Part shown: positions 316-2,723 of the stretch, in pieces | How positions within the stretch are numbered: position 1 is the first letter of the stretch | Layout: every line of letters begins with the position of its first letter | Assembly (NCBI GenBank): GCA_006508105.1 | Contig: QKPP01000207.1 | Span: 7,056-57,866 of the forward strand | Length of the DNA: 50,811 nucleotides | Reading direction: 5' to 3' | From: Myxococcales bacterium FL481 | Lineage (GTDB): Bacteria; Myxococcota_A; Polyangia; Nannocystales; Nannocystaceae | Made by a program: the position numbers and the translations under genes | Notes under the pieces: generated by a model | Database searches by the model: none | Told to the model about the DNA's origin: nothing | The model's input: the letters and a program-made list of their open reading frames with translations, nothing else

Positions 316-1626
316 ATGCGTTTTTGCACCCGAGCCGACATCGCTCGCACTCCTTCGCTTCTCGCCGTGGCGAGCCTTTCTCTCAGCGCGACCACGGTAG
401 GCTGCGCCGAGGACCCTCCACCCGCCGTCGCCGACGAGACCGGACCGACTGACCCGATCGAGACATCGTCTTCTTCAGGCGAGACCGCACCGGGCCAGCC
501 GAGCGCGTCGGGAGGCGGCGACGACCCGACGGGCGGCGATGCGACCGACACCGCGACCGGAGGCAGCGAGGACCCCGGCACCGCTGGGGAGGACAGTGAA
601 ACGGGAGTCGCCAGTGATACCGGAACTCCCAACGACAGTGGAGAGAGCGAGACCGGCAGCAGCAGTAGCGCCACGGGCGAGAGCGACGATGACGACGACG
701 ACGACGACGATACGGGCGACGATCCGGGCGAGGATCCCTCGGAGTTGCCCGATCCGTGCGTCGACAGCACCTACGACCCCCCGCAGCTCGGCGGGGACGT
801 CGACATGGTCGCTTCCGGATACGAGTCGCTGGCGGGCGTCGCCTGGCTCCCGTTGATCGAGCGCTTGTTCTTCGTCGAGGTTCGTCCCAGCGAAACCGAC
901 GACGAGGGACTGCCCGCCTCGGTGATCTACAGCACCGACGGCGCGTCGGACCCCACCGAGTTCGCCGTGGCCGGAGAGTTTGGCGTGACGGGCTTGGCGC
1001 CCGGGCTCGACCTGTCTCTGCTCGTCGCTGCCCACGATGACCGCACGGCGTCGTGGATCGACCGCCAGTCGAAGGAACGGGGGGTGGTCATCGCAACCTA
1101 CGACGCCGACCGGTTCCACGCGCCCAACACGGTGGCGGTCGGTCGACGCGGCGTGACGTACGTCGCCGACGCGGGAGAGTGGCTAGGTGACCGGCCAGCC
1201 GAGCTCGACTTCTTCGGCATCTTCGCCAAACGCAGCGTCGGGGACAGCTTTCTGGTCGACGATGCCATGCAGGCGCCAGGCGGACTCGCGATCTCGTCGG
1301 ATGGCGACTGGCTGTACGCCGTCGACCGTGAAGGCGAACGCGTCGTTCGCTACCCCATCGACGTCGACGGCGGGACCGGGGTCGCGCTGCTATTCGCCGA
1401 GGTCGCCAAGCCCATCGGCATTGCCACGGACTGCAAGGGCGATGTGTACGTCACCACCGCGTCCGGCGTGGAGGTGTTCAACAAGGGCAGCACGCTATTG
1501 GGGAGCATTGCGATGGACGAGCCCGCCATGGACGCGAGCTTCGGCGGCCCGGAGCAAACCACGCTGTACATCACGGGCACTGAGTCCCTGTTCGCCGTCG
1601 ACGTCGGTACGAAAGGTATTCCATGA
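316..1626 (+). CDS. Putative lipoprotein with acidic linker and beta-propeller (SMP-30/NHL-like) domain
   Basis: This 436-residue protein is probably exported and lipid-anchored. A short hydrophobic N-terminus ends at residues T-V-G-C, a near-lipobox, and is followed by about 110 residues rich in Ser, Thr, Gly, Glu and Asp, with nine consecutive Asp at 124-132. The folded part, from about residue 150, carries repeated patterns such as GVAWLPLIERLFFVE, GGLAISSDGDWLYAVD and PIGIATDCKGDVYV. These fit a six-bladed or NHL/SMP-30-like propeller. The linker is typical of myxobacterial surface lipoproteins and probably acts as a stalk. The stop overlaps the next start (ATGA at 1623-1626), so the two genes are probably translationally coupled. 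No enzymatic residues can be assigned, and a binding or sensing role is a guess. Confidence 0.75.
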   Translation: MRFCTRADIARTPSLLAVASLSLSATTVGCAEDPPPAVADETGPTDPIETSSSSGETAPGQPSASGGGDDPTGGDATDTATGGSEDPGTAGEDSETGVASDTGTPNDSGESETGSSSSATGESDDDDDDDDDTGDDPGEDPSELPDPCVDSTYDPPQLGGDVDMVASGYESLAGVAWLPLIERLFFVEVRPSETDDEGLPASVIYSTDGASDPTEFAVAGEFGVTGLAPGLDLSLLVAAHDDRTASWIDRQSKERGVVIATYDADRFHAPNTVAVGRRGVTYVADAGEWLGDRPAELDFFGIFAKRSVGDSFLVDDAMQAPGGLAISSDGDWLYAVDREGERVVRYPIDVDGGTGVALLFAEVAKPIGIATDCKGDVYVTTASGVEVFNKGSTLLGSIAMDEPAMDASFGGPEQTTLYITGTESLFAVDVGTKGIP

Positions 1627-2723
1627 CCACGATTCGCTTCCTCCACCCCTTCGCCCTGGCCGGCCGCGACCGGCTTGCCCCGCGCCGACGCTGGGCCGGA
1701 ATCTGCGTCGCGACGCTGGGGCTCGCACTGCCACTCGGCTGCACACAAGACGAGCCCCCGCCCGACGGCTCCACCTCGGCCGGTGCGTCTTCAAGCACCG
1801 GTGCCACCGGCGACGCGGTCGAACCGAACTCGGCCACCGGTGGCGACACGCCCGCCACAGCAAACACCGGCAGCGACGCGTCGGCCACTGGAGACACGTC
1901 GTCGACCGGTAGCGACACCGACGACGAGCCGACGTCCACTTCAGGCGGCCACACGGAGGACACCGAGACCGCAGGAGGCGACGATGACCCCTCCGGTACG
2001 GACTCGAGCGACCCGAACGGTAGCGACACGGGGGACGACGACGACGCCACGACAGATGGGAATGACAGTCTGACGGGTCACGACGATGACGACACCGACG
2101 ACGGACCGAGCACCGCCACGAGCGACGGTGAAGAGACGGGTGATACTGGCGACGACGACGATGACGACGACGACGACGACGACGATGACGATGACGACGA
2201 CGATGACGATGACGATGACGACGATGACGACGACGACACGCCGGACAACGGCGGTGTGTGGGGAGCGGGCGACTGTCAGGACGACGTGGCTGAGGCCTTC
2301 GAGATCAACGGAGGCGTGAGCGAGGGTCGCGTCGTGCAAAACTTCGAGTTTCTCGACCAAAACGGGGACACGTTCGCCTTATGGAGCCAATGCCACCGCG
2401 GACTGCTGCTCGACATCGCGGCCGACTGGTGAGGCCCGTGCAACGCCATCGCCGGGGCCGGCGAGGAGAAGTACCAAGCCCACAAAGACCAGGGCTACAT
2501 GCACGTGGTCATGCTCGACTCGGGTACGGCCGAAGCATGGGTCGACCGACACGAGCTGACGCACCCCGTGATCGAGATGCCCACGGATGCGGCGACCGCC
2601 TACTGGTTCCCGTTTCTCGCGTACCCCAGCGGCAAGCTACTCAAGCCGGACATGGTGGTGCACGACGCCGGATTCAATCCCGCCAACCTCGGCGAAGCGC
2701 AACTCAAGCACATCTTGCCCTAG
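1623..2723 (+). CDS. Predicted selenoprotein: thioredoxin-like (TlpA/redoxin) lipoprotein with a UGPC active site read through TGA
   Basis: The frame has three parts. First comes a signal peptide ending L-P-L-G-C, a good lipobox. Next is a Ser/Thr/Asp-rich stalk of about 180 residues with 29 uninterrupted Asp (residues 177-205). The third part is a thioredoxin fold. An in-frame TGA at 2430-2432 (codon 270) falls in D-W-TGA-G-P-C, exactly where thioredoxins have the first Cys of WCGPC. The same frame stays open for 96 codons to TAG at 2721-2723. It encodes the resolving Cys273, the strand MHVVMLDSGTAEAWV, a Phe-Pro-Phe at the cis-Pro position and a Pro-Ser-Gly-Lys turn. I infer selenocysteine insertion. 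The product would be a 366-residue periplasmic or surface thiol/selenol oxidoreductase. A nonsense mutation or a sequencing error are the alternatives. The gene is coupled to its upstream neighbour by ATGA. Confidence 0.8.
2151..2237 (+). repeat. GAC/GAT codon run encoding 29 consecutive Asp
   Basis: An uninterrupted run of 29 aspartate codons, mixing GAC and GAT, lies in the stalk of the selenoprotein lipoprotein. The mixed codons suggest it is not a freshly slipped perfect trinucleotide repeat. It is a likely site of length variation, and it encodes a highly charged, probably cation-binding or entropic spacer. Confidence 0.9.
2446..2466 (+). promoter_or_regulatory. Candidate bacterial SECIS hairpin downstream of the Sec TGA
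   Basis: The bases after the TGA can fold into a hairpin. Bases 2449-2453 (tcgcc) pair with 2460-2464 (ggcga), closing a six-base loop ggggcc. Two more C-G pairs (2446-2447 with 2465-2466) form if A2448 bulges. The loop begins 21 nt after the TGA and starts with G. That matches the general bacterial SECIS layout: a short stem, G in the first loop positions, and a loop some 16-37 nt from the UGA. GC-rich coding DNA forms such hairpins easily, so this supports the selenoprotein call but does not prove it. Confidence 0.45.

Follow-up and report, generated by a model that had tools for sequence, protein, structure and literature searches.

The window, by which we mean the whole 50,811-nucleotide stretch of Myxococcales bacterium FL481 DNA analysed here, contains a forward-strand reading frame at 1623-2723 in which a TGA at 2430-2432 is the sole interruption. 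The TGA occupies the first Cys of a thioredoxin-type WCGPC motif whose second Cys is retained, giving UGPC if the TGA is read as selenocysteine. Around it the sequence reads AADW-TGA-GPC and continues for a further 96 residues to a TAG (2721-2723). The initial annotation had drawn attention to both the position of the TGA and the 96 codons that follow it, and both are as described there. Features of the locus are listed in Table 1.

Table 1. Features at and next to the predicted selenoprotein gene; positions are those of the window.
Feature	Position	Strand	Remarks
Lipoprotein-like gene with acidic linker and SGL/NHL-type beta-propeller domain	316..1626	+	Upstream of selenoprotein gene
Predicted selenoprotein CDS, complete	1623..2723	+	366 residues, Sec at position 270; Pfam match only if read through
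Lipoprotein-type signal sequence	1623..1742	+	Ends at Cys 40 (TGC 1740-1742); by eye
29-Asp run within Ser/Thr/Gly/Asp-rich linker	2151..2237	+	
ResA/TlpA-type thioredoxin-fold domain, spanning the TGA	2259..2720	+	Profile matches, fold model
Extra conserved Cys, domain residue 6	2274..2276	+	52 residues ahead of Sec
Extra conserved Cys, domain residue 45	2391..2393	+	13 residues ahead of Sec
TGA predicted to be read as selenocysteine	2430..2432	+	First Cys of WCxxC motif
Second Cys of UGPC motif, kept	2439..2441	+	
Bacterial SECIS-like hairpin	2449..2464	+	22 nt past TGA, -9.3 kcal/mol

The 269-residue product that ends at the TGA had no Pfam match at E <= 0.001. Read through, the protein matched AhpC-TSA (E 5e-5) and Thioredoxin (E 1.6e-4) across the TGA, slightly under the cut-offs of both models, and the isolated domain scored slightly above them; for AhpC-TSA (PF00578, gathering cut-off 26) the scores were 23.7 bits at full length and 26.4 bits for the domain. 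The coding character is alike on the two sides, with G+C at the three codon positions of 0.68/0.40/0.81 in the domain before the TGA and 0.67/0.41/0.86 after it.

At the N-terminus the lipobox reads LALPLGC by eye, and is atypical because of the Pro at -3. Lipoprotein-type signals were seen by eye on family members wherever the N-terminus was readable, with lipoboxes plainer than that of the window gene; six loci of the source genome instead open in poly-Asp where a contig ends. The protein is probably membrane-anchored. The stop codon of the upstream gene (a TGA) overlaps the ATG of the selenoprotein gene as ATGA, which suggests translational coupling of the two. Asp runs also occur in this upstream gene and in the ORF at 5402-9889, and thus are not peculiar to the selenoprotein gene. 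The latter ORF and the one at 10857-14915 on the minus strand encode two long proteins that resemble each other and look secreted, and the one at 5402-9889 has a run of 15 Asp; a PilY1-type likeness of both was noted by eye. No conserved gene neighbourhood was evident by eye in 19 loci, a weak null result because the gene lists hold many spurious ORFs, and a tblastn search of plasmids with the 57 residues preceding the TGA returned no match.

The structure predicted for the domain (11 sequences; pLDDT 84.6, pTM 0.81) is a thioredoxin-type fold to which the residues before and after the TGA both contribute, and it superposes on ResA. When compared with solved structures using Foldseek, ranks 1-11 were all ResA (TMq 0.70-0.76), and ResA/TlpA proteins were the best NCBIfam, PDB-sequence and fold matches of the domain. 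The scores against the NCBIfam ResA model NF002854 were 30.7 bits at full length and 33.6 bits for the domain, below its cut-off of 170. The window protein probably functions like ResA but falls outside the ResA family model. The thioredoxin of the initial annotation is refined accordingly: the domain is ResA/TlpA-like (AhpC-TSA) and not a classical thioredoxin.

The source genome is a 6.45-Mb draft of 322 contigs, estimated to be 93.35% complete with 5.25% contamination; its draft state and estimated contamination count against a selenocysteine (Sec) reading. A search for the Sec machinery had been proposed as a check on the initial annotation, and selA, selB, selC and selD were all found. 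The tRNA-Sec has the anticodon TCA and scored 67.9 bits (cut-off 47). SelB scored 309 bits (cut-off 242.25), and selA, near selB on the same contig, 276 bits (cut-off 267.9). The selD gene (333.7 bits, cut-off 125) has an in-frame TGA of its own. Relatives were searched in a set of 59 genomes, comprising the source genome, 28 others of the same family and 30 of the same class. A tRNA-Sec was detected in 38 of the 59, and in 23 of the 29 within the family, the source genome included. SelB exceeded its cut-off in 14 of the 15 genomes listed with a TGA member in the searches of this set and of the class. The exception (G003, 71% complete) has a TGA member, yet neither a SelB over the cut-off nor a tRNA-Sec match. 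Two genomes (G016 and G018, 72% and 89% complete) have TGA rows and SelB and no tRNA-Sec match. In one 97% complete genome (G001) both tRNA-Sec and SelB are missing, and the two family matches found there are without TGA.

Downstream of the TGA we identified a hairpin with a 6-bp stem, UCGCCG/CGGCGA (2449-2454 and 2459-2464), and a 4-nt loop, GGGC (2455-2458). According to the rules given for bacterial SECIS elements in a review (PMC13188914, Fig. 2 legend), the loop has 3-9 nt with a G in its first two positions, the stem has 4-16 bp, the distance from the UGA is 16-37 nt and the minimum free energy is <= -7.5. The window hairpin agrees with these rules as given there. Across the family they were passed by 16 of 31 TGA genes; among Cys homologues the figure was 1 of 54, and among shuffles about 7% (Fisher 5e-8 for the first two, with the caveat that related sequences are not independent and that the energy is that of the bare hairpin). 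The other 15 TGA genes all miss on energy in this bare-hairpin computation. A hairpin follows the TGA in most members, with loop centres mostly about 23 or 27 nt downstream, and in a hairpin scan 22 of the 31 TGA genes had z > 1.5, against 4 of the 54 Cys homologues. The loop GGUCU occurs in 5 of 17 sequences examined, and resembles the loop of E. coli fdhF.

In 17 ungapped sequences, covariation of the stem was 0.308 against a shuffled mean of 0.142, a value reached by none of 500 shuffles. Standard pairs occupied 70.6% of stem cells, compared with 32-50% when the stem was slid; this level of pairing and the 19 doubly changed stem cells were each reached by 0 of 500 shuffles. Two of five stem measures lay within the shuffle range (51 and 62 of 500 as high), and RNAalifold returned no consensus structure for the same 17 sequences. 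The fold of 48 nt from the window was unexceptional (z -1.13), since 26 of 200 dinucleotide shuffles were as stable, and an Rfam search of 2330-2560 gave no match at E <= 1.

The reading as a selenoprotein gene given in the initial annotation is supported, with the refinement that the gene is one of 12 paralogues. A family profile built from five paralogous domains had 28 matches in the source genome at E <= 0.01. All of the best 12 (E <= 1.2e-10) have a TGA at the first Cys of CxxC; the 13th match (E 2.3e-7) is without TGA, and three weaker matches have one. The motifs of the 12 are UDTC, UGPC (four), UGAC, UVPC, UKSC, USTC, UGSC, UPPC and UPTU. In the gene with the UPTU motif (L033, contig C45, 8793-9071, minus strand), both Cys codons are TGA, and a diselenide active site is possible. 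A 5-bp hairpin with its loop 24 nt past the first TGA follows in this gene, and misses the SECIS energy rule. The same TGA stands in 12 of 12 paralogues and in orthologues of other genome assemblies, and goes beyond chance. A sequencing error in a single genome was considered as well, and rejected given the same paralogues and orthologues.

With PF00578 as the query, 45 matches were found in the source genome, of which 17 contain a single TGA; TAA and TAG were absent from all. Three of the 12 paralogues, on contigs C137, C11 and C45, were missed by PF00578 and bring the AhpC/TlpA-fold genes with an in-frame TGA to 20. The position of the TGA was inspected in 15 of these 20, namely the 12 paralogues and L042, L043 and L047. 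The other five, on contigs C239 (two), C192, C53 (at 34327) and C181, are AhpC-TSA matches with one in-frame TGA each according to the match listing, and suggest more selenoproteins in this genome. Two TGA members stand in tandem on contig C117 (L012 and L133); in the second, no in-frame sequence accounts for the N-terminal half of the domain, and this copy is possibly a fragment or pseudogene. Six contigs of the genome (C11, C216, C117, C108, C76 and C45) end in poly-Asp coding DNA of family members. As the assembly breaks at such DNA, the family is possibly larger than counted. Among the matches listed in the searches of the source genome, the 59 genomes and the class, and with PF00578, interior stop codons were TGA each time and never TAA or TAG.

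The matches listed for the 59 genomes place TGA members in further genera of the family and Cys members in genus g7; for one row (G016:C1087) the TGA is taken from the match listing and not from a codon-level reading. A search of the class (317 genomes, with up to 11 candidates scored per genome) added TGA members in at least four families (f8, f10, f11 and f25), most matches being listed without a stop. Orthologues were found in the records Nannocystaceae bacterium SSF46 (L084) and Deltaproteobacteria bacterium (L085). Two Aminicenantes MAGs (L082 and L083) have Cys relatives with the motif TADWCGPC, at 33-35% identity.

We compared the catalytic codon over 87 distinct domains, retained from 126 aligned after dropping duplicates and matches gapped at the catalytic column. 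It was TGC in 45, TGA in 32 (one of these rows being an unscored stray) and TGT in 10. These loci came from the searches and from fetched stretches, with frames split at TAA and TAG so that neither could appear; the read-through match listings serve as the control for this. In a tree of the 55 domains scoring >= 65 bits, with the catalytic residue masked, the Sec/Cys label required six changes, compared with 18.8 for shuffled labels, and at least four changes are forced by well-supported branches. One Sec gene (L138) is nested among Cys orthologues with support of 100/99. Thus the exchange of Cys and Sec that the initial annotation had proposed to look for in homologues was observed, and so was the retention of the downstream half. 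Two orthologue pairs each keep 102 codons past the TGA with no indel. Third codon positions changed most, taking 39 of the 80 and 33 of the 57 bases that differ in the two pairs, and the changed codons are 25 synonymous to 30 not in one and 24 to 21 in the other. Judging from these comparisons, the codons downstream of the TGA are under selection.

A core subfamily is marked by two extra Cys, one exactly 13 residues before the Sec or Cys and the other further upstream. Among members scoring >= 90 bits, the pair is present in 19 of 21 with TGA and 6 of 6 with Cys; among those at 60-90 bits, it is present in 0 of 7 and 4 of 21, respectively. The two Cys may form a structural disulfide.

The machinery for Sec, the conserved TGA, the Sec/Cys exchange, the hairpin and the predicted fold are direct results of computation, and SelB-dependent Sec insertion is by far the best-supported reading of the TGA at 2430-2432 from sequence data. 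Very probably, the product of the window gene is a thiol-disulfide oxidoreductase with the ResA/TlpA fold, anchored by a lipid outside the cytoplasm and with Sec in place of its attacking Cys. From these results we infer Sec insertion itself, lipidation, location, redox direction and substrate as follows. SelB bound to the hairpin would bring Sec-tRNA(Sec) to the UGA, and the ribosome would pass it and translate on to the TAG. The product would be exported and lipidated at Cys 40, placing the redox domain at the tip of a long acidic linker. There, outside the cytoplasm, the targets of the Sec selenolate would be disulfides or oxidised adducts, with the selenenylsulfide then resolved by the second Cys. 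The protein is likely to have an extracytoplasmic redox role akin to that of ResA/TlpA.

Were the TGA a true stop, the product would be an acidic lipoprotein of 269 residues, with a decaying remnant in the thioredoxin half. TGA does serve as an ordinary stop here, ending 13 of the 32 ORFs in the window that look coding (picked by length and codon-position G+C, and counting the truncated ORF of this gene), and one of the tandem copies on C117 has lost its N-terminal half. However, a remnant is hard to reconcile with a TGA at the same codon in all 12 paralogues, with the indel-free downstream parts of both orthologue pairs, with a coding profile that carries on past the TGA in a genome with Sec machinery, or with interior stops that, among the matches listed, are TGA and never TAA or TAG; we consider it highly improbable. 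The use of TGA to end many ORFs argues in turn against a suppressor tRNA or reassigned code that would decode UGA as Cys or Trp. In three orthologues (L050, L051 and L059) TGA marks the catalytic site and then recurs as the final stop, so context must decide how it is read. Cys would fit chemically, as homologues have Cys at that site, but the canonical tRNA-Sec(TCA), SelA and SelB are present and SECIS-type hairpins accompany TGA and not Cys codons. Such decoding is accordingly very hard to credit.

A different question is whether Sec insertion is deliberately partial, with low selenium yielding an acidic lipoprotein without the redox domain and the gene thus two products. Partial read-through is common for bacterial selenoproteins, and in this gene the UGA comes after the long linker, at the active site, so that termination leaves the signal and the linker. 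The product without the redox domain, however, has no Pfam match. We regard regulated partial insertion as unlikely, and it is compatible with Sec insertion as the best explanation. It is also rather unlikely that the domain is a peroxidase, of the selenium peroxiredoxin or GPx-like kind, instead of a disulfide oxidoreductase. In favour of a peroxidase, AhpC-TSA was matched by 17 of 17 members and GSHPx by 5 of 17; but a UxxC motif where the active-site helix begins, together with the best matches to ResA/TlpA, is the arrangement of a thiol-disulfide oxidoreductase.

UxxC selenoproteins of this sort are already known. The features that appear novel are the acidic-stalked lipoprotein form, the two extra conserved Cys and the presence of about a dozen such genes in one genome; the expansion to a dozen Sec paralogues is the most surprising of these. 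So many genes suggest that the bacterium has a large set of selenium redox tools outside the cytoplasm. More tentatively, and as a possibility we would put at somewhat below even, the lineage may maintain an extracytoplasmic selenium redox layer made up of about a dozen diverged, stalked Sec-thioredoxin lipoproteins, one of them UPTU, out of about 20 TGA-bearing AhpC/TlpA-fold genes, with the redox head switched at the UGA by selenium supply. A Sec lipoprotein family of a dozen members would extend selenium redox chemistry to exported, stalked proteins. Its natural series of Sec and Cys orthologues at one site would serve to test why Sec is kept, and the family would point to genes likely cut at UGA by automatic annotation.

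Within the PMC literature, to which most subscription papers do not belong, we found no paper on selenoproteins, thioredoxin and myxobacteria, and none on selenoproteins and Nannocystaceae. Plesiocystis is named in passages of the selenoprotein literature for an fdhA operon, and an older survey gives 11 selenoproteins for the myxobacterium Anaeromyxobacter dehalogenans (PMC1794560). In the 2026 review the biggest sets named for bacteria comprise 57 and 63 selenoproteins, and the selenoprotein-richest bacteria in its account are mainly anaerobes of other phyla (PMC13188914).

The window protein shares its fold and the position of CxxC with ResA and TlpA, and differs from them in having Sec for Cys, a long acidic linker and two extra conserved Cys; against ResA, the domain is far under the NCBIfam cut-off (33.6 vs. 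170 bits). ResA and TlpA are membrane-anchored outside the cytoplasm. Pneumococcal Etrx1 and Etrx2 are structural matches ranked below ResA (4hqs, 4hqz and 2yp6), and are surface-exposed lipoprotein thioredoxins by their structure titles. They are Cys forms from a Gram-positive bacterium, and are not known to have a poly-Asp stalk. The NCBIfam family NF041054 (ResA-like WAxxUGC motif protein) is also ResA-like with a Sec motif, but this is UGC and not UxxC; the model (WAxxUGC_long) matched 4 of 17 members weakly and the window member not at all.

The initial annotation held that a protein of this type had not been described. Surface-exposed lipoprotein thioredoxins are known in the Cys form, as Etrx1/Etrx2, whereas the acidic-stalk Sec form is absent from Table 1 of PMC13188914, and the words lipoprotein and Nannocyst- do not occur in the text of that review. 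The same table lists Prx-like thiol:disulfide oxidoreductase selenoproteins (PF00578, UxxC/UxxU) and Redoxin/TlpA-like (cd02966) UxxC selenoproteins. The window protein is set apart from the families tabulated there by description, and overlap with one of them is possible. In common with them it has an AhpC-TSA/TlpA-type domain and Sec as the first residue of CxxC, and UxxU, the arrangement of the UPTU paralogue, is listed there too.
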